From: Albula goreensis
Lineage: Eukaryota; Chordata; Actinopteri; Albuliformes; Albulidae
Direction: 5' to 3'
Length of the DNA: 64,000 nt
Assembly: GCA_022829145.1 (NCBI GenBank)
Contig: CM040762.1
Span: forward strand, 24,546,436-24,610,435
Part shown: one piece after another, positions 15,542 through 56,157 of the stretch
Position numbering within the stretch: position 1 is the first letter of the stretch
Layout of the letters: every line of letters starts with the position of its first letter
The notes under the pieces: generated by a model
What the model was told of the DNA's origin: nothing
What the model saw: only the letters and a program-made list of their open reading frames with translations
The model's database searches: none
Program-made: the position numbers and the translations under genes

Positions 15542-22725
<7,184 letters not shown>

Positions 22726-29099: not shown

Positions 29100-42609
<13,510 letters not shown>

Positions 42610-47099: not shown

Positions 47100-49956
47100 C
47101 CTATCCCCTTAGGGACGGATGAGTGGTTTACTTGGGTGCAGGGGATATCCGAAACGGACTTTCCGGATGTCCGATTGCGGCCGTATATGAGGGATCGGGA
47201 TGAGCGGTGGAAGGGACCTTGGCGATAACCACCTGGAGGAATACCACTTAGACCCAGCAGCACCAGTGAGTGTCACTTCAGAGCTGTGTGTCTCACTTAG
47301 TGTCCATGTGCGTCGTTTCATTCTTGTGAAGGTCCATCGGGCTTTATCTGTGTTTAGCGTTTTAGACAAACATGATGTCCATGTATTGCAAGAAAGTACT
47401 AAATATAAAACTGTTTTTTTAAATACCATAACCTCATTTAGAGGCACTTTGACCATTTGTGGGCGCTACCACATAGCAAGGACATTGAATCTCTTAGTAC
47501 AGTAAAGGGCAAGAGCAAACCTTTTGGGTGTCAGACTTGTAGGTTATTAAGTCTTCAGACACCTGCTCCACATTCACATTATAAATGGAAAGTGCACTCT
47601 TCATTTAACTTTGGAGGCCTGTGGTAGAGGTGAGCAGCATTTTATGGGGCATTCACGTGGTGCTTGTAGTAGATTTATGCTGCAGTGCACAAAACAAGGG
47701 GTTACATTATGATAAAAACCTTTTGTTGCCTCTTGGAAAACTATAAAACATATAATAATGTGGTAGAAAATAACCTTATTCTGGAAAATTCACAGATATA
47801 AGAATCAGTTTCTAGTTTCTAATCGTGTTATTTTTCCTACAAACAAAATTAAAGTGTTTAATTGAGTTGTAGCATGGCAAAATCATAAGAAAAAAAATAC
47901 TAGTTTCACTGCAAAATCAAACTGATCGCCTCAATTGATCAAACTCAAATTGCCAACCTTTAACTTAATGACTCAAATACCATGCCAGAATGTGCCACTA
48001 ACTGAGAGCTCTGGTTTTATTTTTACACAAACATCACACAAATGTGTTAAATGAGGGTCCTGCAGCTCGGTGTTTGAGTCCTAGCTGTGCCGATTCTGGC
48101 TATGCCCAGAGGGCCACATTGGAGAAGGGTCTAATGACTCTTCCTAGCTGAGAAATAAGGGCTCAGTTATTACAAATCTTTATAGCCCTCTTTTGGAAGA
48201 CCAGAAACCAGGCAAGATTGGTGGACTCATCGAGTGTTAACTTTGCCTTACTCATTCAGCATAGGCAGTATGTGGTTGTTCTTACATCCACGGTAAAAGG
48301 CTCGATCACCATGTGTTGCATGTGTGGTTTGACAGTGCGTGAATAAATCCTCTGTATGCAGTGACAGACCTGTTACTGAAGAACGCTATCTGTGAGTGTA
48401 ATGTTGGTTTCTTGTCTTCCATGGGTAGCAGAGCACCCAGCAGGAGGTCTCCCTGTCCTCAGTGAAGCCCGTCCTTCCTCATCTATCGAATGGACAGAAT
48501 GACAGCATTTTTGCCTATGGAACCACTGGAGCAGGTAAGCTTTCCCACAGGACCACTGTTCCGTTTGCCCTGCTACATTGTCCTTGTCTGTCTGAGTCTG
48601 GGTTCTGGAGTTCAGTCGTATTGATCAGTGGGGCTGTCAGTGGTGGCATAAATGGCATATAAAGTCGAGTTTGAAACCTAGGTTTCTAAAAACATTGTAT
48701 CAGTTATTTTGAACACAGATAGCTAAATGTACATAAATGCAGATAGCAATGCTGAAGCTCTTAATCTGTTATGTGTACTGTGTCCACAAGGGGGCGATAT
48801 AATACAATGGTAGACCTTGTCACGCCCCGCCTCATGAACAAGGTTGATGAAAGGTTAATTAAATTACAAGCAAATAATAGAAATGCATTGTTACGAACGC
48901 ATCTGTACTTAATGAAATTAGTTTGTGTGTGGGAATTTTGGCAACGTTGACGTCAAGTTACTCTTATTGACGCATGCGATCTTCTTTCAGCAGATTACTC
49001 TGATTCTGTTTTTTATTTACCCTCAGCTAAATCATGCGACTTGAGTCGATAAGTCATTGAAGTGGTGCTCTCCTCGGGGAGGGGCTGTCCGCAATGTTGA
49101 CAGTTTGCTTTGTTAAGGTGACGATACACAGAGCACCGATACTGCTATGCAATGGACGATCCATAGTGACCCGCCCACCTGCTTTAAATAGCATTCCCTG
49201 ATCATGTGACACTGATTGAGCAGTCCACTTATTGGAAAGGTCATGTGTACTGGGCGTATGTTAAAAATACCCGGTGTATTTTATGTATTCAAGTGCGGAA
49301 CGCTCGTTGGTGCTTTGAAATAACAGAAAACTAATATAGAGATATAGAAAATGTACAAATTGATAAAGTTCTGTTTGAACATCAAGTTAAACGTTCAAAA
49401 AATGAAGTTCAAGCTCCAAACTTAAACCTGCCGTCCCTACTGTTTAGTCAATCTAGACAGTCTATGCTGTTGCTTACAGTTTGTGTTTAAATAATTTCCG
49501 GATGCTACAGGTTGCAGAGCAACCCGCTTTGGCGGTTAATATTGAAGTCACCCATATTGTGTAAAAATATTTTGTAATATTGTGTAAAATAATGAAAAGA
49601 TAAGGGTCTGATTTTATGTGGAAATCACAGAATCCACAGAATTATCACCAAGTCTCCCTTCCCTCTGGTCCTGGATCTGCTGTCTCCAGGGTGTTAGGAC
49701 TCACCAATCTGTGAAGATAAGGACTGTAACATTCTGATCCCTGGTCTGACTTACCACACCTCTCTCCTCCCTCTCTAGCTTCAACACCCTGCAAGCTTCT
49801 GCGACACCACTGCCCTCTGCCAAGCTCAACCGGTGCCCAACCAGTGATCCGGTGGCATGCATGGCATCCTGCTCATAGAGGTTAGTGGCAGCACTCTGCT
49901 GGGGATGCAGTAGGAGTCCACAGTGTACTCTTTCCCCTGTGTTCACTGTCTGTGTG

Positions 49957-50118
49957 AAAGCATCTTAACAGGTCCTGGCCTCAGTGCGGTAGGGCAGGAT
50001 TTGGTAGCTGGTGCTGACAGGAAGTAGTCTCTCCCCACAGCTCCCACTGGCTGCTCACCGTGCCTGCTGGGAAAGTCGGGGGGAGACACACTCACTCCTG
50101 TTTCTTAAGCCTGTGTGT
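49957..50118 (+). repeat. Copy 2 of the ~160-bp near-identical duplication (inside kif22 relic)
   Basis: Same orientation as 42215-42377 and about 7.7 kb away. It lies between the third and fourth kif22 exon relics. Weak similarity continues downstream (GTCAGTGTCAGCACTGATGT against GTCAGCGTTAGCGCTAAT). Confidence 0.92.
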
Positions 50119-50249
50119 GTGTGCATGTTGTGTGCGTGTGTGTGTCAGTGTCAGCACTGATGTATCAGTGTCGTGCATTGACTCTGTCCTGCAGTGTCAG
50201 CACGGCCGACACACCGCGGTATCAGTTGCATCTTTATTGAGCGTTCCCC

Positions 50250-50294
50250 TCCCCCTCCTCCTCCTCCTCCTCCTCCTCCTCCTCCTCCTCCTCG
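50250..50294. repeat. (CCT)n trinucleotide repeat
   Basis: About 14 CTC/CCT units directly precede the fourth kif22 relic (acceptor TCCTCAG at 50295-50301), so they form its former polypyrimidine tract. Confidence 0.93.
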
Positions 50295-51659
50295 TCCTCA
50301 GCCCCACAGTGCCTACAGCGTTGAACAGGCTCCTGGCACTGGAGAAACTGATGACGGGATCCCCAGAGAGAGCGCGACACAGCTTACTAAGGACCGCAGC
50401 TCAGTCCCGCGGAGAGACCCAGGGACAGAGCACTAATGCACTTCACTGCTCCGTGCTAACGTCACAATTTCCTCTGGAAAATCTGTGCTGGTCAATATCC
50501 GCTGCTTTCCTTGGCCACTACTCAAGAGGGTTACTGGCTGCTCGGAGACTAACTAACAAGATTAAAATAACCGGCTCACCATGGTGTTTGCAAAACAATG
50601 GAAAATGTGGAAAAGACCGGTGCGCCACTCTTGGAAATATACAGGTTGTTATTTTTAGTAGGCATGTCTGCACATAACTGCTGGAGGAATACAGACAAAC
50701 ATCTGTTGGTGTAGGTAGTTTTATTACAGCTGGCTGAAATTCTAAGTTCAAAATAAAGTGGGCTTTGTTATAAATAAGCATTGTATCTGTTTCAGCTATT
50801 GGCTGGAAGGCTGAGAAACGGTTCACCGATGTGACCTTGTCACAGTTTAAATAGACTGAAGTGTGTCACTGGCACAGCATGGCTTTTGAGAGGTTTAATG
50901 GCTGTGGATCTCTTCAAACCTGATCAGTTCTACTTGACTGCACTAAAAGGTAATTCACTCAGCTCTCAATACACTGTTTTCCATGGAAGGTAGCCAGCGC
51001 TCTGAAATCACTTTCACAGTGCTTGTAGGAACAACATGGTGCAGGTCCCAGGTGTGAATACTTTTGCCATAGCAGGAAATGGTGACTGGGACTCAGCACC
51101 CATTTCTGGGACACACAGCTGCACCATGGAGCTTTCACTCCATCACCAACCCCAAGCCATCTCTGCTTTTTAATCACAACCATCTTTAAAATCGGTTTAC
51201 TGCATAATTTGATCAATGGGACCATCCCTGACTGTCATTAGTGAACAGGGTGTTTTTAATCTGAACACTTTACCTGCTGTAATAAGGACTGTATAATAGA
51301 GTTGAGTTGGTTGGTATGTCCTCAGTGGACATTGTTAATACTTTAAGGTGTTTGACCTCAACTCCATCACTCCATAGAAGCTCACTAGAGAGCAATGCGG
51401 TGCTATATGAGAGGGCAGGGTAAGGAGGCGAAAGAGGGCTCACTGCCCTTTTAGACTTGCTGCGTTCTGTGCAGAAAACGGACCACCACTGCCAGGCCCA
51501 AGAAATGGCCGGCCGTGGTGTCCGCTCTGCAAGGTGAGTCGCTGTCACACCCTGCCGCACGCGGGCTGTGTCCGATTACTGCGTGTCGATTTGACGACAC
51601 CTGATATGCTGGGTCAGGGCTTCAGAAACCAGGGGTTTGTGAGGGATTCCCAGATGTCT

Positions 51660-51915
51660 GTAACAAAATGCTCCCACCCCCCCACCGCCCCACCCCAGCT
51701 AAGCTATGGAATCAGCCCCAGTGCAAAAATCCTCAGTAGAAAGCTGCCACACTATCAAATCCCCCAGCTCACCTGCTGAGCAGCTTTCGCTGTTTTTCAC
51801 ACCGCGGATGCAACACCAGTCACATGCTGCCCATGTTGTTTGAGCAATGTAGAGTCAATACACTTCCACCTCACAAAACTGTAGGTGCCCTTTCCAGTCA
51901 GAGAGCAGTGAGCTC
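51660..51915 (-). repeat. SINE family B, minus orientation
   Basis: CCCACCGCCCCACCCCAGCT, CACCAGTCACATGCTGCCCA and CCAGTCAGAGAGCAGTGAGC follow the same order as the copies at 3525 and 29340. It lies between kif22 relics. Confidence 0.6.
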
Positions 51916-53262
51916 TTGTCTCTGTAAGGATGTGGAAGTGTGGAGCAATAGCCATAGCCCCTATAAGAATGATTTATGAATGTATATATTTCTGATTCTG
52001 ATAAAATAATATCTTTATTATACATCCTTAGTAATTTGTGATCACGACAATGATTAAATATGTCTTATGTTACAAAATAGCCTCATAGCTTTTATTGATC
52101 CTCTGAATAAAGATACTAAATTTCACACGCCTATCATGAGTGTGTATAGTAGTCCCTGCCCTATATATCGTTTAAACAAAACAAATTGATGGAAACCCTG
52201 TGTTAAGTCTCTCAGTGCCTTTATGCGGAACACAGTCAATCAGAGAAGAATTAGATGAAGCCACTTGGCATCGCTTTCCCTTCCCTCTCCATTCTAACAG
52301 AAGCGGATTAAGGCTGACTGGCACTGATCCAGTCACCATGCAGATATACAGAGTCGCCGGAGCCTGCAACATCTGCTGGCTGTTCATCTCTCCGGCCCTT
52401 CTCTCCCCGCAAGACCGCGTGTCTCCGCCGCTCACAGTACCAGGGCTCTGCTGCCAGTTATCGATTTCTTCTTAACCCGTGTTGCAATCTACTTATTTTC
52501 ACATATGTGTCACTCAACCTTTACCACTCAGTGTATGTTATATGTAAATAACCCCTCTCTCTTTCCCTCTCTCTCCTTCTCCAGCTTCCCCAGCAGTCTG
52601 CTGTAAATCTTCACGCTCTTCCTGCAAGAAATAACAGCTGAGCACAGTCAGTCCCGTGTTCTCCTCCACCACACTGACCCCTCCGAACTGTAGCTGAAGG
52701 ACTACAATGAACACATCTGTGGAAAGAAGTGGGATGTGTGTGCTCCATCTTGCATTAGAGAATCCTGTGTGAAATTCCACATGTTAGGTGCCACCTCCCT
52801 ATATTTGCAGTGTAGGAGGACCTACATTTGTCTGTGCTTGCTCCACCCTCATCTTTTTTGATTAATGGAACTGCAATACGGATGCACACACTGGCCTAAA
52901 GCACTCGTGTATGTTTCGGCATTTAGTGGATTCTCTTGTCCACAGTGGAGGACAGTTTTACATTTCTACAGACTATCCATTTCATACTGCTGGATGGTTA
53001 AGCAAATTGGGTTGAGTACCTTGACAACACATGATCTACCTCAGGATTGAACCCACCACCTCTGACCTGGAAAGTAAGGTCCTTATGCATTATATTACAC
53101 AGAGGCATGAATGCATGTAGTGACTGGGAGTCTAGTCTGGACCATGGTGTTCTCCAGCAGAAAATCCTGCAGATTCTCAACTCAGGCAAACCTGAAAGAT
53201 CTGAAGGCCCTGCAGCTTATCGGAGAGATGGCCCCGATGATCCTCGCCTGGAGATAGGCGCA

Positions 53263-56157
53263 CAGCGCTGCCAACATGTGCAGCCCCGAGGGCGGAGAAT
53301 AGCGTGGTCAGATGACGCTAATGGCAACGCCGCGCCGCTCACGCATGGTCACTCTGCCGGTCCAGCGGACACTTTCATAAATCGTCTTGGAGAAGACACT
53401 GTTCTAGAATCTGTGTTGCCGTTTGAGTCTCAGTGGATAAGCATAGGATATGTACAGGGGAAGTCTGATCCTAGATCAGCATGCTGGCTCATGCTTTTTG
53501 AGAACGGCTTTGTTTTTTTGGATGCTGATTGGTTTGGGACATAGTGTTAATAACCTCTCCATAATAATCATGTCCACAGAAACGTATGGTATGTATAGGT
53601 TAGCAAAAGACATTTAGTAGCATAGGACTGTTTTCTTTTTGTCTATCTTTTCTTTCTTTCTCTTTTAAGCACAGGCTAACATCCTCAGCATTGGGTCATG
53701 AATTGGAGAGGAATCTTTTCCATTTGTGTGTGAGTATGTGAATACTGTATCTGAATGCGTTTGTTCAAGTGGGGCGATACAGGTCAACCTTGGGTGTAAG
53801 AATGAAAATTATATTTCTGTCACTTGTATGTTTATGCCTTTCTGATTTTGTTTCATGCAAGGGGTTACCATACCAGTATTTGCCTTATCTTGCTCCCATT
53901 GTATCATATTTTACCAGTACGTAATAAATTTTATAGATCCTCTCTGTGACTGTCTTTTAGAGGTCTGTCTGTCTGTCTGTGTTGTCTGCTGTGGAAAATG
54001 GTAGAGAGACTGAGGACCTTACCATGTAAATGGAAGTCACACACAGTGCGCTTAGTCTTATGGGACAAACACAAACTGAATGAGGTAGAGTAATCAGTAT
54101 GCATACAATCCTGGATTACTGAAACCAGAAATGTTTCAGCTATGGCAATCCATGCTCAGATCATGACTGTTTTAATATAGGCGTTTCAGGAACATTTTTT
54201 CACCTTTTGGGTTGAATGATTGTTTTAATTATCCTTCTGAACTAGAACGTTTATTGTAACCAGGATAGAATGTTCTTTTAAAATGAACTGAACATGAAGT
54301 ACGAAAAATGTTCTCGTTGAGTCTCCCCATACGACATATGGTACGGATGTCGGCGTAGTCGCTAAAGCGTGTGTAATAACTGGCTATAACCGCATGATGG
54401 CCTCAGAACATCAGTATGCAATAGAGAACTCCCTCTGTTAACCACTGTTGTGTCTTAAGACCGCATTGCACTCTTTCGAAAATGAACGTAACAAGGCAGG
54501 TTCCATGTGCATGTCAGTGTTTCTTTGTAGATGGTACATAAAGCGGAAGTTCACCTCAGGCTTGTGTCCTCTGTTTTAATGGCTTTGTCCAGTGCGCTAT
54601 GAATAGCAAGCGCGACACCTGGACGGAAATTCTACTCGCTGTAGGCTACGTGATTTAAAAATGGGGTGAGTACGTGCGCCCTTTAACGTTCATGCATATA
54701 TAGGAAAATGACAAATAGTTTCATCTACTGATTGTCAGAGAAAAAACAGTCTTCAGAAGCAAAGGTGGCCGTGTCAATTGCTGCATCAATACAACTATTT
54801 TTAAGAAAATAAAAGTGACAAAAGAATGGTTGCGGTGGAGTCATCTCGCCTACCTTATTTTTCGCATTAGGTTAAATTAGTTTGTTCCGTTTCTTACATG
54901 TACACCCTCGCCACCTCCCCACATGCCCCCTCCCTCCTCCTCCTCCTCCCGGCTCCGATTCGAATCACACCCATCGAACAGCGCGGTAGAAAATGCGAGA
55001 GCTACAGCAGCAGGCGGAATAGTGCTGGAATGCACCTTTCTCTCGTTCGAATCGTTAATAATAAGGCTTTGGAAATTTACATCCTCACATATAGGCTATT
55101 AGGCAGATTCTTAATCAGAGTTATTAGCTTGCTTCGTTAGTGATGTTTTGTCCGACCAGCAAATTGTCTACGACTAGAGGGGAACTAAATGGGTTTTTTT
55201 TTTCTTTTTCTGAAAAATAACTAGGATTTTTTTTAAATAAAAAAATAATATCTTAAAGGTAAATATAATGGCAGTCCGGGTGGTGGTGAGATTGTGCGCG
55301 CTATAAAGGTAGGTTGTCCTCGGTTGTTATGCTTATTTCACTGGAAAAACACGCATGTTCCGATGGTGGGTGTGTTACTGCATGCTTGTGCGTGAGGAGG
55401 TTCGGCCGAATTGGGAGACAAATAATTTGTATCTGCATTTGTGTCTACTTATTTGCATTGAACCCATCCCTTTAATTCAAAGAATATTTTAATTTTGATT
55501 TGGAGCACACACTTCTTATGAAATTAAAACATTCCATTTAGCAATGCTAACATCATGATAAATTTAACGTCCGTAAATTGTAGCCATGTAGTGTCACCTC
55601 AATATAACTCGTCGTCTCACTATTAAGTGATAAATGTACACCACCCGCCATCTCTCATTCCATTTGCCCTCTTTATTTTTTGTCGGTCGAAAGACCCCCC
55701 ACCCATACACACACACACACACATGCACTGTGTCTTTTACATCGCTACCTCACGATTCTTCCTATATCATGTTTAACGCAATATCAATGCATGTAATATT
55801 TGTCAGTTACACCAACACAAAATATGTCTAAACCACCTAAACAATAGCTGACAAGGCTTTTGATCTCCCTCAGTCAGTTTGGTTAGCAAAAACAGTCCAA
55901 ATTTAAAACGGAGATTTGAGCTTTGAGATGTAGACCTATAACCTTAAAGCTTGTGGGACTCAGTCTGCTTGTGTGTGCTGAAGTTGGAAAATTCTCTGGA
56001 AAAGTACTTGACATGCGACAGTATTTAATAATAGCATACAGGTTAGGTGATAAATCAGCTTGTCCTGTCCTTACTTCATTTGTAACCTCTGCTTCTCTGA
56101 CTCTTCCAGACATTGAGTTGGACAGGAGAGATACAGACAGCAACTTCTGCTTGTATC
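53263..56157. other. Upstream region of prrt2; candidate 5' UTR exon near 54900-55306
   Basis: No coding exon was recognised. A block with CTCC-rich and GC-richer sequence around 54900-55030 and a possible donor AAAG/GTAGGT at 55308 could be a noncoding first exon, because the coding exon has an acceptor (CTTCCAG, 56110) in front of its ATG. A (CA)n run is at 55710-55724. Confidence 0.35.

Follow-up and report, generated by a model that had tools for sequence, protein, structure and literature searches.

KIF22/Kid is a chromokinesin of the kinesin-10 class. In the window analysed here, a 64,000-nucleotide stretch of the Albula goreensis contig C22, an initial annotation recognised collinear kif22 exon relics (47100..53262) and named tlcd3b and prrt2 as intact neighbours. 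Does this interval still encode a kinesin, or is it the remnant of a lost gene copy, and if so, when and how was that copy lost?

Results

Exon relics of kif22 in the window

An intact 12-exon kif22 on contig C8, described below, served as the reference for exon numbering, and local DNA alignments to each of its exons were compared with alignments of 200 shuffled sequences. Parts of exons 1, 2, 4, 7, 8 (its end) and 10 were recognisable in the window and outscored all 200 shuffles. Exons 9 and 12 were weak and outscored 199 and 195 of 200, respectively. Eight of the 12 exons, two of these weakly, could be placed on the + strand in gene order with intron-like sequence between them, so that the collinearity claimed earlier holds. 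Exons 3, 5, 6 and 11 were undetected in their expected gaps, where 194, 12, 142 and 196 of 200 shuffles reached the observed scores.

The exon 1 relic (47135..47265, + strand) runs from VRLRPYM... up to the first donor and is identical to the reference at 90 of 122 nt (local alignment score 54, shuffle maximum 32; protein score 69). It contains a frameshift, a stop and an internal deletion, retains its donor GT and lacks a securely identified start codon. The exon 2 relic (48407..48534, +; 97/125 nt identical) carries the P-loop (...AYGTTGAG) and was recovered with the intact protein as genome query at 72% identity, with one TAG stop. Its best PDB match in a phmmer search was human KIF22 (6nje, E 2.4e-11; next 1.1e-4), and it matched the Pfam Kinesin profile with E 4.7e-5 and 23 bits, short of the curated threshold of 29.3. 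The splice sites around this exon had been described as intact, which is true of the donor gtaagc (GT at 48535-48536). The acceptor has changed from AG to TG (48405-48406), and the exon start assumed earlier, 48432, follows an internal TAGCAG that is not the true acceptor.

The switch I and switch II exons had both been reported missing. Switch II (exon 5) is indeed absent; the switch I exon 4 is present in decayed form (49668..49880, +), reading VLDLLSP...NILIPGLT...NQ*SGGMHGILLIEV, with 142 of 196 nt identical. It scored 92 against residues 184-254 of human KIF22, and the genome search with the intact protein placed it at C22:24596103-24596318 with 49% identity and three stops. This relic also carries indels, and its acceptor AG has become TG (49666-49667) while the donor GT is retained. 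No motor-end block was found, and the block so named by the initial annotation, at 50302..50422 (+), is the post-motor exon 7 (ALNRLLALEKLMTGSPERARHSLL...; 86/121 nt identical across the whole exon). Exon 7 has an open frame and a retained acceptor, and its donor GT has changed to GG (50423-50424).

Further downstream, the 3′ end of exon 8 (51467..51533, +; LCRKRTTTARPKKWPAVVSALQ; 45/65 nt identical) retains its donor, and the remainder of this exon was undetected. A possible exon 9 relic lies at 52578..52642 (+; 44/63 nt identical). The first part of the helix-hairpin-helix (HhH) is found in the exon 10 relic (53119..53263, +; 97/137 nt identical), which reads SDWESSLD...KILQILNSG / NLKDLKALQLIG...ILAWR*, contains a frameshift and a stop, and gave a protein score of 127 against the C8 Kif22. 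A probable exon 12 relic (53675..53701, +; ANILSIGS*) matches the exon start at 13 of 14 nt, retains its acceptor AG and lies where the exon order predicts. The relic, previously thought to end at 53262, thus probably extends to 53701.

A frameshift-tolerant search against human KIF22 gave 25 plus-strand matches, of which those in order alone were retained; weak out-of-order matches (for example 52348-52472 and 53859-53941) were discarded as noise. The top three pieces of the window scored 127, 92 and 80 at a frameshift penalty of 9, and 127, 84 and 76 at a penalty of 13. Maxima at these penalties were 59 and 57 for 40 Markov sequences, and 85 and 51 for 14 control searches, run on other segments or on the opposite strand. 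One control therefore exceeded the third piece at penalty 9 and none did so at penalty 13, where the segment scoring 85 dropped to 45.

Two observations concern the sequence between the exon relics. In the six-frame translation, a Poxvirus A22 Pfam match was seen at about 49260-49403 (E 0.0035, 17.9 bits, under the cut-off of 22). The expected place of exons 5 and 6 holds a 188-bp stretch (49957..50144, +) that matches the last mvp intron (42215-42401) with 95% identity and 3 mismatches within the first 163 bp; among its 8 genome matches only these two extend past a TG-rich tail. If the relic was the recipient of a copy, the near identity to the mvp intron suggests a late arrival.

An intact kif22 in a paralogous block

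The initial annotation had reasoned that a paralogous mvp/prrt2 block carrying an intact kif22 would point to decay of one duplicate after genome duplication. A genome search located such a gene, with 12 exons, at G000:C8:12063240-12069653, and its presence supports that reading. It encodes a 642-aa open frame with GT/AG borders at 11 of 11 introns and matches the Pfam profiles Kinesin (3.3e-101) and HHH_3 (6.2e-10). The best PDB match of its motor is human KIF22 (6nje, 9.2e-146; next chain 5.2e-65) and that of its tail is KIF22 2edu (1.6e-25). This gene presumably does the chromokinesin work.

With the HhH tail of the C8 protein as query only C8 was matched; this search did not pick up the decayed tail within the window and would likewise overlook other decayed copies. 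The first 230 aa recovered the C8 exons and, on C22, the two relic exons; all other matches were kinesins with no more than 55% identity. Neither search revealed a third kif22-like locus.

The neighbouring genes, whose names mvp, tlcd3b and prrt2 we take over from the initial annotation or from general knowledge, encode vault, TLC (two exons with 18.1 and 23.1 bits, under the cut-off of 24.6) and CD225 domains, respectively. The immediate upstream neighbour of the relic is mvp (29.1-42.7 kb), and the TLC-domain gene, given earlier as the neighbour, lies beyond it (19.2-22.7 kb). C22 and C8 share the order tlcd3b-mvp-kif22-prrt2, all on the + strand, with more matches up- and downstream; the comparison spanned about 80 kb per block (84 kb of C22 and 80 kb of C8), over which these genes form doubly conserved synteny on two chromosomes.

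Synonymous divergence (dS) was 1.24 for the relic and C8 kif22 (bootstrap 0.88-1.91), 1.24 for mvp (1.03-1.51), 1.05 for tlcd3b (0.70-1.61) and 1.09 for prrt2 (0.77-1.71). The corresponding 4DTv values were 0.276, 0.283, 0.250 and 0.339. This matching divergence indicates that the four pairs arose together. The event was most likely the teleost genome duplication, its age being read here solely from dS, a measure close to saturation at these values. Two such blocks would also result from a duplication that was segmental, or later and lineage-specific, and a comparison of just about 80 kb per block leaves some room for it; we consider it unlikely, since the three neighbour pairs are old (dS 1.05-1.24) and the four compared genes are collinear on two large contigs.

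Decay and probable time of loss of the window copy

The kif22 copy in the window is very probably dead, judging by 5 stops in 242 aligned codons, frameshifts, the loss of two acceptors (exons 2 and 4) and one donor (exon 7), and the four undetectable exons. The stops and frame changes reported earlier in several blocks are confirmed, and the description of a decay 'caught midway' understates it, 4 of 12 exons being undetectable. Judged by its sequence, the locus would now yield no kinesin, because without switch II and the other exons the protein cannot be encoded. Ordered exons, intron-like spacers and inactivating lesions fit an unprocessed pseudogene. Its identity as kif22 follows from a motor more similar to KIF22 than to other kinesins and from the retained first part of the HhH tail.

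With human KIF22 as outgroup (whose sequence as used may be inexact), 32 amino-acid changes were specific to the relic and 3 to the C8 copy at 242 sites, and 5 further sites were stops. This asymmetry bears on a residual role of the relic, which could still be transcribed as a noncoding RNA or encode a short peptide, for example by use of the open exon 7 and of a cryptic acceptor ahead of 48432. The surviving splice sites are the donors of exons 1, 2, 4 and 8 and the acceptors of exons 7 and 12, and the frame of exon 7 is still open. We regard such a role as very improbable: changes are 32 to 3 against the relic, no single frame joins the pieces, and some GT/AG survival is expected in a late-dying pseudogene. 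Errors of sequencing or assembly in a working second kif22 can practically be dismissed as the source of the lesions, given four undetectable exons, three lost splice sites, 5 stops in 242 codons with a surplus of amino-acid changes on the relic branch, and neighbour-pair exons that align in open frames in the same assembly (dN/dS 0.10-0.19).

Between the relic and C8 kif22, third-position changes far outnumber those at first and second positions, which suggests that the window copy was probably functional through most of its history. Pairwise dN/dS was 0.19, a value that covers detectable exons only and is therefore biased downward. A rough estimate from dN/dS puts the share of post-duplication time spent dead at 0 to about 30%; the 32-to-3 asymmetry could mean that the dead phase was longer than this estimate implies.

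Discussion

The interval is very probably an unprocessed pseudogene of one of two block-duplicated kif22 copies, the other being intact on C8, and represents an ordinary post-duplication loss. In the proposed sequence of events, a whole-block duplication, most likely the teleost genome duplication, would have produced the two copies, and selection would have kept both for most of the time that followed. The C22 copy would then have been released from selection and lost splice sites and exons, and the 188-bp sequence that matches the mvp intron now lies between exons 4 and 7.

To our knowledge, most losses after the teleost genome duplication leave no readable trace. In comparison with other decayed ohnologues of that event, the lost copy here is still readable exon by exon, with the types of lesion visible. 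The general pattern of one intact and one lost copy within a doubly conserved synteny block is shared with those ohnologues as they appear in a genome-wide analysis of such losses, which also inferred losses along later, tip branches (PMC7161988). The kif22 relic is a well-documented case of this already known kind. Like KIF22/Kid, the relic's P-loop piece and the C8 motor and tail match human KIF22 above all other solved chains; unlike KIF22/Kid, the window copy is without switch II and other exons. Among the publications listed as matches, judged by titles and abstract beginnings, none dealt with a fish kif22 duplicate that had been lost.

According to a review (PMC11211608, citing Blaker-Lee 2012), a reduction of kif22 in zebrafish leaves brain morphology abnormal and axons deficient, and kif22 is one of the two genes of the 16p11.2 region that act as deletion dosage sensors. 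For annotation, no gene model should be placed at the C22 relic. We see roughly even odds that, through most of the period after the genome duplication, a dosage-sensitive chromokinesin was present in two working copies and that one was lost late in this lineage. A second kif22 that was long under selection would then have died while the mvp, tlcd3b and prrt2 pairs survive, which makes the locus a case for studying when and why a dosage-sensitive gene becomes single-copy again. If the loss was indeed late, living relatives may keep two functional kif22 copies between which the roles are divided.

An intact kif22 in a duplicated block

The window carries, all on the + strand, a TLC-domain gene that the initial annotation named tlcd3b (exons 19156-19314 and 21008-21133), mvp (29.1-42.7 kb; vault repeats and shoulder), a kif22 relic and, beyond it, prrt2 (56.7-57.7 kb; CD225 domain). 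When the same genome (932 Mb, 208 contigs) was searched, translated frames of the window matched 12.040-12.073 Mb of a second contig, C8, where tlcd3b, mvp, kif22 and prrt2 are conserved in order and strand. Further collinear matches lie upstream (window 15.5-18.3 kb, C8 12.0363-12.0399 Mb); between those at 16.0 and 18.0 kb sits a 31-bp tandem repeat (16598-17693, ~35 copies, 93% matches). Downstream of prrt2 both blocks contain a repeated gene family with many-to-many relationships between the contigs (L030-L031, C22:24613259-24629285 on the window's contig; C8:12088658-12093459).

A search for the kinesin family in the genome, followed by reading some of its loci, led to kif22 at C8:12063240-12069653. 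Its 12 exons, with borders predicted from homology and splice signals, join into a 642-amino-acid frame with GT/AG at 11/11 introns. The protein contains full Kinesin (3.3e-101) and HHH_3 (6.2e-10) domains, and among solved structures it is closest to human KIF22 in both motor and tail. An intact copy beside paralogous neighbours, as anticipated by the initial annotation, is thus present. Searched genome-wide, the helix-hairpin-helix tail matched at C8 alone, in a search that failed to recover the relic's own decayed tail. With residues 1-230 as query there were 29 matches, comprising the C8 exons, two relic exons on C22 (72% identical with a single TAG, and 49% with three stops) and kinesins of other kinds, none above 55% identity. 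Based on these searches two kif22 loci were found, of which one is open. Among other kinesin genes, L001 (C12:26894053-26895030) and L002 (C7:23960058-23961035) hold the entire motor domain in a single open frame; the nearest solved structure to L001 is human KIF3B (1.3e-200), then KIF3C.

Exons and lesions of the relic

Frames of 46.0-54.5 kb were compared with solved chains, stops being written as X. One forward frame had human KIF22 (6nje) as its top chain through the P-loop exon (E 2.4e-11), followed by a kinesin-8 (1.1e-4); the remaining two forward frames gave no kinesin-like match. A second part of the 6nje match (VLDLL...NILIPGL...switch I, ~49.67-49.89 kb) was weak alone (8.4 bits). 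In frameshift-tolerant alignment to human KIF22, 48408-48539, 49668-49883 and 53137-53263 scored 127, 92 and 80, or 127, 84 and 76 at a stiffer frameshift penalty. Forty Markov controls reached at most 59 (57 at the stiffer penalty). Fourteen control searches of other segments or strands reached 85 at the softer penalty in a single segment, which fell to 45 at the stiffer one, where their overall maximum was 51. At the stiffer penalty these three pieces therefore exceed chance; the remaining pieces required a closer relative as reference.

Each exon of the C8 gene was accordingly aligned to the relic and compared with 200 shuffles of its search interval. Exons 1 (90/122 identical), 2 (97/125), 4 (142/196), 7 (86/121), 10 (97/137) and the end of exon 8 (45/65) exceeded all 200 shuffles, exon 9 exceeded 199 and exon 12 exceeded 195. 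Exons 3, 5, 6 and 11 were undetectable, their best scores being equalled or exceeded by 194, 12, 142 and 196 of the 200 shuffles, respectively. TG replaces AG at the acceptors of exons 2 and 4, and GG replaces GT at the exon 7 donor; exons 1, 2, 4 and 8 retain their donors, and exons 7 and 12 their acceptors. There are five stops among 242 aligned codons, and frameshifts in exons 1, 4 and 10. Given this inventory, switch II (exon 5) is missing as initially described, but switch I (exon 4) is present and the P-loop exon (exon 2) keeps only its donor, not both splice sites.

Within the 421 bp separating exons 4 and 7, the expected place of exons 5 and 6, a 188-bp stretch (49957-50144) is 95% identical to part of the last mvp intron (42215-42401), 7.7 kb away, with three mismatches in its first 163 bp (98% identity). 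It has eight genome matches, and only these two sites extend past the TG-rich tail. The stretch probably represents a recent, short, local copying event, which could have run in either direction. If the duplication is ~300 million years old, as stated in PMC7161988, the copying would have occurred only a few million years ago, since dS 1.24 over that time sets the neutral rate.

Timing of kif22 loss

Nei-Gojobori dS between the blocks (bootstrap ranges in brackets) was 1.05 (0.70-1.61) for tlcd3b over 176 codons, 1.24 (1.03-1.51) for mvp over 949, 1.09 (0.77-1.71) for prrt2 over 149 and 1.24 (0.88-1.91) for relic and C8 kif22 over 238, with dN/dS of 0.14, 0.10, 0.19 and 0.19, respectively. The three neighbours are intact in that their aligned exons lie in open, constrained frames. 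Within these wide ranges the relic shares the age of its neighbours' duplication. Its differences from the intact copy affect 28% of first, 19% of second and 43% of third codon positions, a third-position bias so strong that it would not be expected of a copy dead since duplication. With human KIF22 as outgroup, 32 changes were relic-specific and 3 C8-specific (binomial p 4e-7), so the relic branch evolved under relaxed constraint. In a simple two-phase estimate, the share of the time since duplication that the relic has been dead rises from 0 to ~0.3 as the dN/dS assumed for the working phase falls from 0.19 to 0.05, a rough figure because dS is near saturation, and one lowered by the use of surviving exons only. 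From the 32-to-3 asymmetry, the dead phase may have been longer.

The locus is a dead kif22 duplicate of an ordinary kind, well preserved; its living partner and the neighbourhoods of both copies lie in one assembly.
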